Shown in pieces: positions 52,927-60,250 of a stretch of 64,000 nucleotides of DNA (its first letter is position 1; each line of letters begins with the position of its first letter). The position numbers were made by a program, and so were the translations under genes. The DNA lies in contig NZ_CP006367.1 in NCBI RefSeq assembly GCF_001442755.1, forward strand, positions 1,054,001 to 1,118,000, written 5' to 3'. The DNA comes from Aureimonas sp. AU20. Lineage in GTDB: Bacteria; Pseudomonadota; Alphaproteobacteria; Rhizobiales; Rhizobiaceae. The notes beneath the pieces are model-generated. The model was given only the letters and a program-made list of their open reading frames with translations, did not search any database and was not told where the DNA came from.

Positions 52927-53373
52927 ATGATGTTCGAGCTTTGGCCCTATCTCGCGGTGTTCTCCAGCGGCTTCGTCGCGGCGACGCTTTTTCCCGCCTC
53001 GTCGGAGGCGGTGCTGGCGGGCTTGCTCGTGAGCGGCGAGGGTGATGCGGCCGGGCTGGTGGCGGCCGCGACGCTGGGCAACACGCTGGGCGCGGTGTTC
53101 AACTGGGGCTGCGGCCGGGCTCTGGCGCATTACCGCGATCGCAGCTGGTTTCCCGCCAAGGGCGCACAACTCGCGCGCGCCGAGCGTCAGTTCAAGCGCT
53201 TCGGCCTGCCCTCGCTCCTCTTCGCCTGGCTTCCCGTCGTGGGCGACGCGTTGACCGTCATCGCCGGACTGCTGCATGTCCGGCTGGTCTGGTTCGTGCC
53301 GCTCGTGGGCGTCGGCAAAGGCGCGCGCTATATCGCGGTGGCGGCCGCAACGCTCGGCCTCTGGGGCGGCTGA
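52927..53373 (+). CDS. YqaA-like (SNARE-associated/DedA) membrane protein
   Basis: A 148-residue inner-membrane protein with about four helices. It resembles YqaA in layout: FSSGFVAATLFPASSEAVLAGLL, then GNTLGAVFNWGCGRAL and ERQFKRFGLPSLLFAWLPVVGDALTVIAGLLHV, the DedA-like re-entrant segments. DedA proteins are flippases or transporters of lipids; the function of YqaA is not known. The next gene starts 28 bp downstream. Confidence 0.82.
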   Translation: MMFELWPYLAVFSSGFVAATLFPASSEAVLAGLLVSGEGDAAGLVAAATLGNTLGAVFNWGCGRALAHYRDRSWFPAKGAQLARAERQFKRFGLPSLLFAWLPVVGDALTVIAGLLHVRLVWFVPLVGVGKGARYIAVAAATLGLWGG

Positions 53374-53401
53374 CGCGCCCCTCGCGCGTGGAGGCTCGGG
53401 T

Positions 53402-54061
53402 ATGGACTGGACGGCGCCGATCGATGCCTATTGCGAGCGCTTGAGTCCCGGCTTCTGGGCGGAGCCGGTGAATGCGCTCAGCAATGCCGCCTTTCTGCTC
53501 GCCGCCCTCTGGGCCTTCGCGCGCTGGCGGCGGCAGGGGCGGGGCGACGGCGCGGTGCTCATGCTGATCGCCCTCGTCGCCGTGATCGCGCTCGGCTCCT
53601 TCCTGTTCCACACCTTCGCCAATCGCTGGTCGGCCCTGGCCGACGTGCTGCCGATCGCGCTGTTCATCTACGGTTTCTTTGCGCTGGCGCTGCATCGTCT
53701 GGTCGGCCTCCGGCTGACCGCCAGCCTTTTTGGCACGCTTGCCTTCGCGCTGGCGGGCCAGTTCGGCGCGCCGCTGGCCGAGCCGCTTCTCGGCTCCTCC
53801 GCCGCCTACTTGCCGGCCCTGCTGGCGCTTCTCGGCATCGGCGCCTGGCTGGTGTGGGAAGGGCGGCCGGGCGGGCGAGGGCTGCTTTGGGCCGCCGGAA
53901 TCTTCACCCTCTCGCTCGCCTTCCGCATGATGGACGAGCCGCTTTGCCCTCGCTGGCCGCTCGGCACGCATTTCCTCTGGCATGGGCTGAACGCGCTGGT
54001 GCTGGCGCTCTGCCTGCGCGTCGCGCTGCGCCGGCTCGAGCCTCGCCAAGAGACTGTTTGA
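53402..54061 (+). CDS. Ceramidase-domain (alkaline ceramidase-like) membrane protein ending inside a MITE
   Basis: A 219-residue, seven-helix protein of the CREST/alkaline ceramidase type. The first hydrophilic part MDWTAPIDAYCERLSPGFWAEPVNALSNAAFLLAALW matches the family, with GSFLFHTFANRWSALADVLPI (H and D residues for zinc) and FRMMDEPLC, GTHFLWHGLNAL near the end. It would be a membrane hydrolase of ceramide-like lipids. The last 4 codons and the stop come from the MITE copy 2, so the original C-terminus may be missing. Confidence 0.83.
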   Translation: MDWTAPIDAYCERLSPGFWAEPVNALSNAAFLLAALWAFARWRRQGRGDGAVLMLIALVAVIALGSFLFHTFANRWSALADVLPIALFIYGFFALALHRLVGLRLTASLFGTLAFALAGQFGAPLAEPLLGSSAAYLPALLALLGIGAWLVWEGRPGGRGLLWAAGIFTLSLAFRMMDEPLCPRWPLGTHFLWHGLNALVLALCLRVALRRLEPRQETV

Positions 54062-55072: not shown

Positions 55073-55269
55073 GAAACGTCCGGTGCAGGCTGCGGGGGTC
55101 GAGCGGCCAAGCAACGGCCCAAGTCCCCGGACAAGCGATCCCGATGGGGTTGCTTGTTCGTACGCCTCTGACCCATCGCTGGCAACGAGGGTAGTAGAGA
55201 CCTTGTGTGGTTAAGATTTTGTTGTTGCGGTGCGAACACAGTTGACGATCCACAAGGCCGCGACATCTC

Positions 55270-55300
55270 TTGCCCTGTCCTGTGGAAACGGGGTGACACT
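55270..55300 (+). promoter_or_regulatory. cueR: CueR-type promoter with 19-bp spacer
   Basis: TTGCCC (55270-55275) and GACACT (55295-55300) flank a 19-base spacer, the long spacing typical of MerR-regulated promoters. The dyad CCC-TG-TCC-TGT-GGA-AAC-GGG lies between. It precedes the MerR gene, so autoregulation is likely. The transcript would have a very short leader (about 6 nt). Confidence 0.55.
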
Positions 55301-55312
55301 CCGGGGGTTGGG

Positions 55313-55732
55313 ATGAATATCGGAGAGGCTTCGCGGCGGTCCGGCCTGCCGCCGAAGACCATTCGCTATTACGAGGACGTGGGTCTCGTGCGGCCTGCGC
55401 GGGCGGCCAACGGCTATCGCGACTATGTCGAGCGCGACGTGCATGTCCTGCGCTTTCTTCAGCGCTCGCGCTCGCTCGGCTTCTCCATCGAAGAAGCGCG
55501 CAAGCTCCTGTCGCTCTATGCGGGGGAGGGGAGCCAGCGCGACGAGGTGCGCCGCCTCGCCAGCCGCCGCCTGGTCGAGATCGACCGCAAGATCGAGGAA
55601 CTCCAGACCCTCAAGCGCTCGCTCGCCTCGCTGACGCAGGATTGCGAAAAGGGCCAGGGGCCGGACTGCCCGATTCTCGACGAGATCAGCGGCGAGCGCG
55701 CCCGCGTGGCCCAGCGCGCCACCGGCGCCTGA
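55313..55732 (+). CDS. cueR: Copper-responsive MerR regulator (CueR/HmrR)
   Basis: A 139-residue MerR protein. The N-terminal winged helix (IGEASRRSGLPPKTIRYYEDVGLVRPARAANGYRDY, 3-38) and a long dimerisation helix are followed by the Cu(I)/Ag(I) site C-x7-C in DCEKGQGPDCPILDE (about 112-120). This Cys spacing identifies the CueR/HmrR group. It would activate copA-type genes, but none is adjacent. It ends before a hairpin (55753-55783). Confidence 0.88.
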   Translation: MNIGEASRRSGLPPKTIRYYEDVGLVRPARAANGYRDYVERDVHVLRFLQRSRSLGFSIEEARKLLSLYAGEGSQRDEVRRLASRRLVEIDRKIEELQTLKRSLASLTQDCEKGQGPDCPILDEISGERARVAQRATGA

Positions 55733-56010: not shown

Positions 56011-57834
56011 ATGGAAATGCCGCTCACAGCGATTCGGACATCCGTCGGTTGGGTTCCCACGGTCGCTCTTTCCTGGCTCTGGGGGCTGGGCTTCTTTTAT
56101 TCGCTGCACATGGCGCGCAGCTATGGCTGGACGGGCTTCCTTGCCTTCGCTCTGCCCAACGCGCTGGGCCTCTTCCTGTTCGGTTGGGTGCTGGGACGGC
56201 GGGGACGCGACCCCGCCGCGCTCTTCTCCCGTCTTCAAGGACCCTTCGCCGGCCTCTTCCTGCTGGCGCAGGTGGCGGCGGTGGGCATCAGCCTCCACGC
56301 TTTCGTTTCCTATCTCGCGCCGCTCGGCGGCACGGCGGGCATGGCGCTTCTGGCGGGGCTGACACTGCTGGTCGCCTGCGCCACGGGGCAGGCCTTCTCG
56401 CTGCGCGTTCTGCGTTGGGCGCATGCCGTTTATCTTCCGCTTGGCATCGGCGCGGCGCTCTACGCGCTGTTTGCGCTGCGCGGCGCGCTCCCGCCCCTGC
56501 CGGAGGCGGTGCTGGGCTGGGACGGGCGCTTCTTCGGCCTGGTCGTGCCCTCGCTGGTGGGCTTTCTGCTCGGCCCCTGGACGGACGTCCAGCAGTGGCA
56601 GCGCGTCGTCGAGATCCATCGCTCCGGCGGCTCGCCGACGCTGAGCTACGGTCTCGGCTCGATCATGTTTCTCGGGCTGATCGGCCTCAATGCCGCTCTC
56701 GCCATGGCGGCGGGCATCGTGCCGCCACTCGCCTTCTTCGACGGAAGCTTCGGCGAGCAGGCGGCGGTGGCGACGGCCCTGGCCGGGGCGCCGAACACGC
56801 TGGCCGCAGTGGCTTTCGTGGTCTGGGCGACGATCGCGCTCCTGTCCACGGCGGACAGCAGCTACTGCGCCCTGCGCTGGCTTCTCACCTCGGTGACGGC
56901 CCGCAGCAAGAGTCCGCTTCTGGCCATCGTCCCTGCGGCGCTCGTCGCCTCGCCGCTTTGGGTGCTGGGTGCGGCCGTGGGGCTGGCCGCCCTTGGCGTC
57001 CAGTCGGACCTGCCGATGATCTATCTCATGGCGCCTTTCGCCACGCTCTTCGCCGGGCCGGCGGCCTCGCTGGTGGCGCGCGTCCTCGGGCGCGGCGGGC
57101 GCTACGATTCCACCCTCTGCTATCTCATCGGCCTCGCCGCGCTGCTTCTCTTCGCTCTTGGCTATGCCGGGCCGGTGCCGAGCCTCATGGCCCTTTCGGG
57201 ACTCGTCGGTCTGGTCGGCGCGCTGCCCGTTCTTCTCGGCGAGCCGAAGGCGGCGGAGGTTCCGCTATCCACTGAGGGCACCGGCGCGGCGCCGCGTTTC
57301 ACGCCGCTCGTGCCCGCGCAGCCCGTGGGCCATGTCGCGCAATTGTCGGCCGCGCACGGGTTCGACGGCGACTGGTTCGTCATGCGCATGACGCCGACCT
57401 ATGACGACACGAATTCGGTCGGCAACGTCTACTTCGCCAATTACATGCGCTGGGTCGGCAAGGCGCGCGAGCTTTTCTTCAATCTCTGCATGCCGGAATT
57501 CAGTCTGGCCGACACGTCCTTCTATGTGCTGACGCGCTCGTTCCAGCACGACTTCCGCCGCGAGGCGCAGGAGTTCGAGCCGATCGTGGTGCGCATCCGC
57601 ATCGCCTCGCACAATCGGAAATTCGTGACGCTGGAGCACGAGATCCACAGCGAGAACCATGGCCTTCTCGGGCGCGGCTCGCAGTCGCTGATGTTCGTGG
57701 ACATCAAGGATTACCGTCCACTCGACATTCCCGGCAGCATCATTCGCGGCTTCCTGCCCTATTGGCCGAAGGGCTCCTCGATCACGGACCGCGTGCGCGA
57801 GGCCGGGCCGAGCCTGTCCGACGCGGTGATGTGA
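56011..57834 (+). CDS. SSS-like membrane transporter fused to a hotdog thioesterase
   Basis: A 607-residue protein with two parts. Residues 1-430 hold about 11 to 13 TM helices with a sodium:solute symporter-like signature: GPWTDVQQWQRVVEIHRS (about 190-207), and LLSTADSSYCALRW (about 277-290), which is the LSTADS sequence found in TM8 of the SSS family. Residues 454-595 form a 4HBT hotdog thioesterase: MTPTYDDTNSVGNVYFANYMRWVGKARELFF, then HDFRREAQEFEPIVVRIRI and FVTLEHEIHSENHGLLGRGSQSLMFVD. The two parts are in one frame without a stop. It may couple acyl-CoA hydrolysis to a membrane sensor/transport part. A strange fusion, function unknown. Confidence 0.8.
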   Translation: MEMPLTAIRTSVGWVPTVALSWLWGLGFFYSLHMARSYGWTGFLAFALPNALGLFLFGWVLGRRGRDPAALFSRLQGPFAGLFLLAQVAAVGISLHAFVSYLAPLGGTAGMALLAGLTLLVACATGQAFSLRVLRWAHAVYLPLGIGAALYALFALRGALPPLPEAVLGWDGRFFGLVVPSLVGFLLGPWTDVQQWQRVVEIHRSGGSPTLSYGLGSIMFLGLIGLNAALAMAAGIVPPLAFFDGSFGEQAAVATALAGAPNTLAAVAFVVWATIALLSTADSSYCALRWLLTSVTARSKSPLLAIVPAALVASPLWVLGAAVGLAALGVQSDLPMIYLMAPFATLFAGPAASLVARVLGRGGRYDSTLCYLIGLAALLLFALGYAGPVPSLMALSGLVGLVGALPVLLGEPKAAEVPLSTEGTGAAPRFTPLVPAQPVGHVAQLSAAHGFDGDWFVMRMTPTYDDTNSVGNVYFANYMRWVGKARELFFNLCMPEFSLADTSFYVLTRSFQHDFRREAQEFEPIVVRIRIASHNRKFVTLEHEIHSENHGLLGRGSQSLMFVDIKDYRPLDIPGSIIRGFLPYWPKGSSITDRVREAGPSLSDAVM

Positions 57835-57880
57835 CCCGACGGCGCACCTGAAGCGTGTCCGGTTCATCGAACAGGCGTCG

Positions 57881-60250
57881 TCAGCCCGCCATCTTCAAGG
57901 AATTGGGCCGCTCGCCGACCGGGCGGACCAGGGCGTTGGCGGCCTCGGCCGGCATGGCCGGACCGAACAGGTAGCCCTGGCATTCGTCGCAGCCGAGATC
58001 CACAAGGCAAGCGTGCTGGGCTTCGTTCTCCACGCCCTCGGCGATCACGGTCATGCCCAGCGCTTTGGCGAGCGAGACGATGGCCTGAACGATCGGCAGG
58101 CTGGCGCCTTCGCCGGGTAGGTCGGTGATGAAGCTGCGGTCGATCTTCAGCTTGTCGAAGGCGATGCGGCTGAGATAGGCCAAGCTGGAATAGCCCGTGC
58201 CGAAATCGTCCAGCGCCAGCCGCACGTTGAGCGCGCGCAGCCGCGCGATCGAAGCGTTGACGTTGGACCCCGCGTCGAGAAGCACGGATTCGGTGATCTC
58301 CAGTTCCAGCCGCTCGGGCGCGAGGCCGGAGCCGACCAGCGCCTCCTCCACCAGGGCCGGCACGTCGGAATGGCGCAGCTGGATCGGCGATAGATTGACC
58401 GCAATGCCGATCGTCTCCGGCCAGAGCGTGGCGACCCGGCAGGCTTCGCGCAGCGCCCAGCGACTGAGCGGCATGATGACGCCAGTCTCCTCCGCGATGG
58501 GGATGAAGTCGGACGGCGGGACTTTGCCGCGCAAGGGATGGTTCCAGCGGAGCAGCGCCTCGAAGCCACAGACGAGGCCGGTGCGCGCGTCGACCTGCGG
58601 CTGGTAGTGGAGCTGGAACTCGCCGCGATCCAGCGCGCCGCGCAGGTCCGAGGCCAGCGCCCGCTGCTTCTCCTGCCGCTCGTCCATCTCGGCCTCGTAG
58701 AAGCGGAAGCCGTTCCTGCCTTCGCGCTTGGTGCGGTAGAGCGCAAGGTCCGCCCGGCGCACGAGATCGGTTGCGCCGTCAGCCGGGGCCAGCGCGATGC
58801 CGATGCTGACGCCGACGCCCAGATGAATGTCGCCGATTCGGCAGGGACGGCCGACCGCCGAGACAATGCGCTCGGCCAGGCACCTGACGGCGGCCCGGTC
58901 GGCGGTCTCGTGCAGCACCATGAACTCGTCGCCCGCCAGCCGGGCGACGAAGGTGCCCGGCTTGACGAAACTCTGCAGCCGGCGCGCTACCTCCTTGAGC
59001 AGAGCGTCGCCCACCGCGTGGCCGAAGGCGTCGTTGGCGTTCTTGAACTCGTCGAGGTCGAGGCACATCACGGCGAAGCACGCGGCCGGCTCGCGCGCCA
59101 GCAGCGCGTCGAGCCTTTGCTGAAACAGGGCGCGGTTGGGCAGGTCGGTCAGCGGATCGTGGGTGGCCAGATGGGACAGGCGCTCCTGCGAGCGTTTTTG
59201 GACCGTGATGTCTGAGCCGACGCCGCGATAGCCAGTGAAGACCCCGTCGCAATCCTGGATCGGCTTGCCGCTGAGGCTCCACCAACGCTGCTCGCCGACC
59301 ACCGACAGGCGGATCTGCAGCCCGTGAAACTCCTTATGCGCCCGCATGGTCTCGAACAGGCGGGCCAGATCCCCGCTTTCCTCCAAGGCACTGGCCGAGG
59401 CGCCGATGCCGCCCACCAGCCGGTCGAAGGTGAGGCCGTGAAGGACGCTCTCGGGCAGTTCCACCACCTCCGCCAGACGCGGCGAAATGTGCTGGAGCTT
59501 CAGGTCGGCGTCGGTTTCCCACAGCCAGTCGCTGGCATGGGCCTCGAAATCGTTGAGGAGGAGATTGGTCAGCTCCTGCTGGCGGCCGAGCTCGATCTGC
59601 GTCAGTACCCGCTTGGTCACGAGGCGGCGCAGGTGGAACATCGCGGTGAAGATGAACAGCGCGTAGAAGGCGAGCAGCAGCGCGACATAGACGTTCACCG
59701 CCTCGCCCGTCATCGCCAGCGCCAGAAAGGAGCCGAAGACGATCGGCCCGACATAGGCGAAGGAGGCGCGCGGCACCGTGGCGAGGCACATGCCCGTCGC
59801 GATCAGGCCGGCACAGGTCGAGGCGATCACGAGCCGCCCGTTCATGTCGCTATCGGCGAAGAGCACGATCGGGATCGACGCCAGGAACAGGCCCGCCAGG
59901 AGAGAGACCCAGGTCATCAACGCCCTGAAGCGCGGGCCGATCGGCAGGTTGGGCGCGCGCGAGCGCCAGCGCCAGCAGCTTTCCAGCGTGCACAGGGCCA
60001 GCGCGACGCTGCCGACCTGAAGTCCCACGAGATAGGGCACGTAGCTTCTATGCCAGAAGAGGACGATGATGACCTGCACCACCATGAAGGCGGTGATCGC
60101 GGTCAGCGGCGCCAGGCGCAGCGCGACGTCCACCCGCTCGACATGGACTTGGTCGGGCAGGGGGCCGACGGCGCGCGCTTCCCGCGGATCGTAGTCGATC
60201 AGGAAGGCCGTCAGACGTGTGAACGGCGCCACCAAACTCGCTCGCGTCAT
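57881..60250 (-). CDS. Membrane PAS-GGDEF-EAL cyclic-di-GMP protein
   Basis: A 789-residue inner-membrane protein. Several N-terminal helices (about 47-210) are followed by a PAS domain (about 240-360), a GGDEF domain with degenerate motif RLAGDEFMVL (AGDEF, about 439-443; I-site is not typical), and an EAL domain with GFEALLRWNHP (EAL at 564-566), ALDDFGTGYSSLAYL and KIDRSFITDL. EAL metal residues are intact, so phosphodiesterase activity is likely; the cyclase may be weak or regulatory. The LapG-like protease family (a c-di-GMP-linked BTLCP) is encoded elsewhere in the window but not beside it. Confidence 0.9.
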   Translation of the reverse strand: MTRASLVAPFTRLTAFLIDYDPREARAVGPLPDQVHVERVDVALRLAPLTAITAFMVVQVIIVLFWHRSYVPYLVGLQVGSVALALCTLESCWRWRSRAPNLPIGPRFRALMTWVSLLAGLFLASIPIVLFADSDMNGRLVIASTCAGLIATGMCLATVPRASFAYVGPIVFGSFLALAMTGEAVNVYVALLLAFYALFIFTAMFHLRRLVTKRVLTQIELGRQQELTNLLLNDFEAHASDWLWETDADLKLQHISPRLAEVVELPESVLHGLTFDRLVGGIGASASALEESGDLARLFETMRAHKEFHGLQIRLSVVGEQRWWSLSGKPIQDCDGVFTGYRGVGSDITVQKRSQERLSHLATHDPLTDLPNRALFQQRLDALLAREPAACFAVMCLDLDEFKNANDAFGHAVGDALLKEVARRLQSFVKPGTFVARLAGDEFMVLHETADRAAVRCLAERIVSAVGRPCRIGDIHLGVGVSIGIALAPADGATDLVRRADLALYRTKREGRNGFRFYEAEMDERQEKQRALASDLRGALDRGEFQLHYQPQVDARTGLVCGFEALLRWNHPLRGKVPPSDFIPIAEETGVIMPLSRWALREACRVATLWPETIGIAVNLSPIQLRHSDVPALVEEALVGSGLAPERLELEITESVLLDAGSNVNASIARLRALNVRLALDDFGTGYSSLAYLSRIAFDKLKIDRSFITDLPGEGASLPIVQAIVSLAKALGMTVIAEGVENEAQHACLVDLGCDECQGYLFGPAMPAEAANALVRPVGERPNSLKMAG

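Follow-up and report, generated by a model that had tools for sequence, protein, structure and literature searches.

Aureimonas sp. AU20 encodes a protein in which a membrane part and a thioesterase are joined in one chain, and it was shown by computation that this fusion is a real two-part membrane protein, with about 12 helices in a predicted SSS/SLC5 fold (SSS, sodium:solute symporter), a linker and a hotdog thioesterase. The gene lies in a window of 64,000 nucleotides (the whole stretch of DNA that was analysed; contig NZ_CP006367.1, positions 1,054,001 to 1,118,000 of the forward strand), and its features and those of the convergent neighbour are collected in Table 1. Translation confirmed the single uninterrupted frame of the original prediction, free of internal stops and with both SSS-like signatures in place; the database version of the same protein (P0002) has 605 residues. 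The full-length AlphaFold model, which had been proposed as a check, showed an SSS-type fold at a mean pLDDT of 89.3 and a pTM of 0.73. The home genome gave one match to the fusion.

Table 1. Coordinates in the window of the fusion gene, its parts and the convergent partner gene
Feature	Position	Strand	Basis or remarks
SSS-fold/hotdog thioesterase fusion gene, 607 aa (P0001)	56011..57834	+	Single frame, full-length homologues, AlphaFold
Membrane part, residues 5-408	56023..57234	+	About 12 predicted transmembrane helices, SSS/SLC5 (LeuT-type) fold, first SSS helix absent
TDVQQWQR motif, residues 191-198	56581..56604	+	D192, W196 and R198 invariant in 72/72 aligned sequences
LSTADS motif, residues 278-283	56842..56859	+	Inside long helix 263-298
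Linker, residues 409-447	57235..57351	+	Variable, poorly ordered; pLDDT <50 at 419-446; consensus mostly absent
Hotdog thioesterase part, residues 448-584, CalE7/SgcE10/DynE7 type	57352..57762	+	Pfam, solved-structure searches, Foldseek
Gap between the stop codons of the convergent gene pair, 46 bp	57835..57880	.	Sequence
Partner gene, 789 aa: hydrophobic N-terminal part, PAS, GGDEF (RLAGDEF), EAL (FEALLRW)	57881..60250	-	Pfam, motifs, conserved neighbour
Partner N-terminal 225 residues	59576..60250	-	About six hydrophobic segments (by eye); no Pfam family over cut-off

The fusion is conserved. The join was found in all 120 homologues listed (of 710 found), which come from several sources; their identity to the query is 46-100%, and the alignments cover 91-100% of its length. 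When residues 1-430 were used as the query, 117 of the 120 matches listed (130 found) carried the hotdog domain; orthologues that are always two separate genes, the outcome named beforehand as fatal to the fusion, were therefore not what was observed. Among the three matches lacking the domain, P0122 and P0123 end in what, read by eye, is apparently a frame-shifted thioesterase, and P0130 (426 aa) stops within the linker and could, from its sequence, be a lone membrane part. Short matches to the thioesterase alone numbered 33, of which 28 are on contigs smaller than 4 kb. Seven of these matches were inspected: P0159 and P0170, on long contigs, start inside membrane sequence, P0175 starts in linker-like sequence and P0182 within the hotdog part; P0163 is recorded without the length of its contig. 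No clear split gene pair was found among the three N-terminal and the seven inspected thioesterase matches. The reading that a frame error or a mis-assembly merged two genes is refuted by the homologue search and by searches of the order, family and G389-genus genome samples, in which no stop codon interrupted a match except for one TAG in G795, and its probability is practically negligible. Where the homologues are named at source, they are mostly called 'thioesterase' or 'acyl-CoA thioesterase', and two thirds of the protein length are thereby ignored. Two partial thioesterase parts carrying the Asn/Arg motif described below (P0174 and P0175) are named Verrucomicrobia/Chthoniobacterales, and P0174 opens with a membrane-like stretch; going by these names, the fusion family may reach beyond Alphaproteobacteria.

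Carriers of the fusion made up 5 of 397 genomes in the order sample and 9 of 199 in the family sample, in which two other genomes of the home genome's genus gave no fusion. The class sample contained one carrier in 385, the home genome itself, and the phylum sample two in 398. Within the genus of genome G389, which may be Methylobacterium-like, judging from homologue names, 29 of 111 genomes carry the fusion, and within that of genome G367, 2 of 18. Because the distribution is patchy, frequent gain and loss of the fusion is suggested. Methylobacterium, Methylorubrum, Aureimonas, Aurantimonas, Phyllobacterium and Methylocapsa are among the source names of the homologues; the nearest named relatives are those of Aureimonas ureilytica (72-78% identity in the best segment), and a single-sequence scan of genome contigs returned two loci only. 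In Methylorubrum extorquens AM1, the copy is found on the megaplasmid, where LuxR- and LuxI-like quorum-sensing genes (recognised by eye; L056:15245-16793) lie approximately 5-7 kb downstream of it.

The original prediction had placed the membrane part among SSS proteins with a LeuT-like fold. The predicted structure bore this out, with a LeuT-type fold of the SSS kind, but the profile searches came close to showing no SSS similarity at all, a result that had been named as grounds for rejection. No significant Pfam or NCBIfam match to the membrane part was obtained; PF00474 (Pfam SSF) matched neither the whole protein at E values up to 1 nor residues 1-417 at E values up to 10, a PF00474 search of the home genome was empty, and a match to ENOD93 at E 0.4-0.6 was discarded as chance. 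A profile of 72 homologues searched against the PDB returned thioesterases and, besides these, two PLP enzyme rows at chance level (E 0.28). A home-made profile comparison started from 18 SSS loci, with ORFs taken by a hydrophobicity filter; 11 sequences were used after five duplicates and two apparently misframed ones (L077 and L078) had been left out. Together, the 11 gave E 0.0039 and a probability of 8.7%; singly, they ranged from E 0.058 to 0.58, while the 10 unrelated membrane proteins listed as controls ranged from 0.12 to 0.89, and the comparison is uneven in that the controls are single sequences and the SSS set is an alignment. It weakly favours an SSS relation of the membrane part, and the assignment is supported by the predicted fold and the motifs. 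The helices of the model, as assigned by the author, number about 12 as against the 13 or more, with a first helix ahead of the core, by which SSS proteins are recognised, and the structural alignment starts at residue 47 of CHT1. In the 72 aligned sequences, position 279 is S in 55, T in 14 and A in 3, and position 280 is T in 68; LSTADS falls in register with an SSS protein in a weak profile alignment. S279 and T280 probably correspond to the Na2-site hydroxyls of SSS proteins in core helix 8, where we take hydroxyls of this type to have a residue-level role. The Na2 site of SSS proteins is located between core helices 1 and 8 (PMC7918813).

Polar or charged residues within the helices (D192, R198, H138 and N227) are invariant. 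Since a passive anchor would need neither these nor the largely kept S/T pair at 279-280, it is argued that the membrane half would be more than an anchor. It is accordingly regarded as unlikely that the membrane part, once a transporter, now serves only to keep the enzyme close to the membrane as the site of use of acyl-ACP or acyl-CoA products, even though Pfam SSF fails to recognise it, the first SSS helix is absent and the enzyme part is much better conserved (74% against 43% in G891). It is this difference in conservation that tells most strongly against a demanding role for the membrane half.

The hotdog fold has been surveyed before (PMC2698920), and in the fusion it begins about where it had been predicted, near residue 454: Pfam 4HBT_2 matched residues 465-577 (E 1.8e-12) and 4HBT residues 471-552. 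A sequence search of the PDB ranked thioesterases of enediyne pathways highest, SgcE10 at 2e-11, CalE7 at 9e-11 and DynE7 at 2e-9, whereas E. coli YbgC scored 0.18, and the 72-sequence profile gave CalE7 at 1e-14 against YbgC at 8e-5. With the model as the query, Foldseek placed CalE7 first, with TM-scores by target length of 0.80-0.85 to the chains of 2w3x. On alignment, N468 and R486 stand opposite N19 and R37 of CalE7 and are present in 71/72 and 72/72 sequences, respectively; the loop beside N468 (469-472) has a pLDDT below 50. We take N19 and R37 to be catalytic residues of CalE7, a role that Kotaka reportedly described in 2009, and YbgC proteins presumably have a catalytic Asp where the fusion has N468. 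The fold, the closest sequence relatives and the Asn/Arg pair in place of an acidic residue are all those of the CalE7/SgcE10 type. CalE7, SgcE10, DynE7 and EspE7 are free-standing proteins of enediyne pathways. CalE7 cleaves the polyene made by the CalE8 synthase off that synthase's ACP by hydrolysis (PMC3107222). The label 'acyl-CoA thioesterase' of the original prediction was too narrow, as its nearest relatives of known structure work on polyenes carried by ACP.

A different product has been considered on the strength of a YbgC-like hotdog thioesterase of Sinorhizobium meliloti, which hydrolyses 3-oxo-myristoyl-ACP to give the infochemical 2-tridecanone and whose catalytic Asp is D27 (PMC12794305). 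The fusion might, on this precedent, release 3-oxo acids that decarboxylate to methylketones as volatile signals, with the membrane part incidental; however, it has Asn where YbgC proteins presumably have that Asp, and the YbgC/FadM models of NCBIfam score under their cut-offs on it (TIGR00051, 35.7 against 68.7 bits; TIGR02799, 34.1 against 141.35 bits), which leaves methylketone formation very improbable.

GGDEF/EAL proteins make or break the signal molecule cyclic di-GMP (c-di-GMP), and it is such a gene that meets the fusion tail to tail. Neighbours were compared in 35 loci (the window, two of Aureimonas ureilytica, AM1 and 31 other genomes, among which are 21 of the G389 genus's 29 carriers); the ORFs were selected on length and third-position GC, and BLASTP served to sort them into families. 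The GGDEF-EAL family was found in 24 of the 35 loci, convergent and adjoining the fusion in 21 and upstream on the same strand in three, and the second commonest family was found in five. The domains were checked with Pfam in the window, L009, L049 and L059. In 20 convergent cases, the distance between the stop codons is 4-189 bp in all but one; it is 742 bp in L008, where the picked ORF is truncated and a short overlapping ORF lies between the fusion and its partner. The N-terminal part of the partner showed 41-77% identity in 19 other loci, and in a further two the figure was 27-30%; among the 20 convergent partners, A/S-GDEF is present in 20, DDFGTG in 19 and the EAL pattern in 15.

In the 111 genomes of the G389 genus, the N-terminal part of the partner was matched in 51 at E ≤1e-10, comprising all 29 carriers of the fusion and 22 of the 82 non-carriers. 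The matches fall into a close class (E ≤1.3e-44; 19 genomes) and a weaker one (E 4e-24 or worse). Close matches were found in 19 of 29 carriers vs 0 of 82 non-carriers (Fisher p 1.7e-14, a value that overstates the case, since the class boundary was set after the gap had been seen and the genomes are related and non-independent). The two genes are convergent on one contig in 16 of the 19, and the matches are on different contigs in three; in five of the other 10 carriers (G973, G989, G991, G1003 and G1004), a distant relative of the partner lies just upstream of the fusion. One match of the N-terminal part in a non-carrier (G994:C1:1805635-1806105; E 2e-30, one TAG, 202-aa frame) falls between the two classes and looks like a decayed partner copy, as if the pair had been lost. 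The partner is the best lead on the function of the fusion, and because it is a c-di-GMP enzyme, a signalling use is suggested.

The frequent pairing with a signalling gene also speaks for a sensor reading, in which the SSS-fold half would bind or import a small solute and its state would switch the cytosolic thioesterase on or off. Fusions of SSS domains to sensor kinases are known (PMC7918813), and the domains may switch histidine kinases such as CbrA; in the fusion, however, the STAC and kinase parts are absent by Pfam, the variable, low-confidence linker would be a poor route for conformational coupling, and regulation by a solute is purely putative, so that the sensor is held to be doubtful.

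Other neighbours were also considered. The MerR gene upstream in the window (55205-55732) was rejected as a partner, being beside the fusion only there and in the two Aureimonas ureilytica loci. Further upstream, the window holds a ceramidase-family (PF05875) membrane protein (53276-54061, + strand), with a related ORF in the same place in both Aureimonas ureilytica loci, preceded by a VTT-domain ORF (52927-53373). At loci without the partner, G978, G1034 and G1040 have a convergent gene of the acyl-CoA dehydrogenase family (Pfam on one of the three), and in G795, G890 and G956 an OYE/FadH-type oxidoreductase and, as read by eye, a TetR-like regulator lie close to the fusion (scanned in G890 only). 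A polyketide synthase (PKS) adjoins the fusion in 2 of the 35 loci (Pfam scan of part of the neighbours). In G119, a KS-AT-DH-ER-KR-ACP synthase, which gave no thioesterase by Pfam at E 1e-5, and a BioF-like acyltransferase precede the fusion; the three stand in line at L011:19-10850. In G367, the stretch read before the fusion comprises the ER-KR-ACP end of such a synthase together with the BioF-like gene, an SDR, two genes of capsule-synthesis families and an export gene. A capsule-cluster identity, considered on account of the Rkp-like genes beside the fusion in G367, was rejected, as in G119 no capsule genes adjoin the PKS and the BioF-like gene. An enoyl-ACP-reductase-like gene follows 14 bp after the fusion in both genomes; a close copy is present in 11 of the 18 genomes of the G367 genus vs the fusion in only two, and that pairing is therefore a local event and the gene, present independently of the fusion, was rejected as a partner. 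With the fusion and the BioF-like gene as the queries, no match was found in about 15.5 kb around the reductase-like gene in five fusion-less sister genomes, and the ORF lists of three such stretches showed no large synthase frame. These results fit the view that the synthase, the BioF-like gene and the fusion arrived together (n = 2). The neighbours at the partner-less loci hint at acyl or polyketide chemistry.

The reading preferred, though tentatively and as possible rather than probable, is that of a membrane thioesterase that frees an acyl chain, with the SSS half passing the acid along with Na+ and the c-di-GMP partner tied to the process; it is slightly preferred over solute sensing. 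The enzyme half would face the cytosol, as the positive charges in the loops indicate, and would hydrolyse an acyl chain, probably derived from fatty acids or polyketides, off ACP (or CoA) at the membrane's inner face. The transporter-fold half may then carry the freed acid, or some related small molecule, across the membrane with Na+; acyl release and membrane passage would thus be joined in one protein, and the tail-to-tail c-di-GMP enzyme may respond to the same process or help to control it. A more far-reaching version, considered unlikely, is a vectorial thioesterase by which the acid is cut from its carrier and passed across, and which with GGDEF-EAL would form a mobile two-gene signalling module with the lipid acid as the signal. 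If the membrane part works, an SSS-fold transporter would be joined to a metabolic enzyme rather than to a signalling kinase, and the fusion would permit a direct test of the coupling of thioester cleavage to membrane passage. The patchy c-di-GMP pairing offers a way into the purpose of either gene, for example in Methylobacterium or Aureimonas.

The original prediction, which knew of no symporter fusion with an acyl-CoA thioesterase, agreed with the literature covered: no SSS-thioesterase fusion was found among the listed titles and abstract beginnings of open-licence PMC articles, a set in which subscription papers are mostly not represented, and a review from 2021 that deals with prokaryotic SSS proteins, fusions included, does not use the word 'thioesterase' (PMC7918813). 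Within this coverage, the thioesterase is new as the partner of an SSS-fold part; SSS fusions with kinases were already known. Compared with the SSS family (TC 2.A.21, SLC5; CHT1, SGLT, SiaT and NIS) and the related DUR3, the membrane part has the same predicted fold, but only 10-15% identity in structural alignments; it differs from SSS proteins in lacking a Pfam SSF match and the first helix and in the added C-terminal hotdog enzyme, and its transport role is putative. With the YbgC/FadM acyl-CoA thioesterases, the fusion has the Pfam hotdog families in common, and several homologues are so named at source; it differs in missing the NCBIfam cut-offs and in having Asn for the presumed catalytic Asp. 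It resembles CalE7, SgcE10, DynE7 and EspE7 in the hotdog fold, as its closest PDB sequences, and in Asn and Arg at the N19/R37 positions; those enzymes are free-standing and have an iterative PKS alongside, whereas the fusion's thioesterase is attached to a membrane part, and a search of the home genome for the type I PKS associated domain PF16197 gave one match under the cut-off and none over it. The vectorial thioesterase would be the mirror-image counterpart of the vectorial acylation performed by FadL/FadD. The SSS-sensor kinase fusions CbrA and MxtR have, like the fusion, an SSS-fold N-terminal part followed by a cytosolic enzyme; the fusion has about 12 helices, against the 13 given for CbrA (PMC7918813), and after its membrane part only hotdog families match by Pfam, so that a thioesterase stands where CbrA and MxtR have STAC-PAS-kinase and there is no phosphotransfer part.
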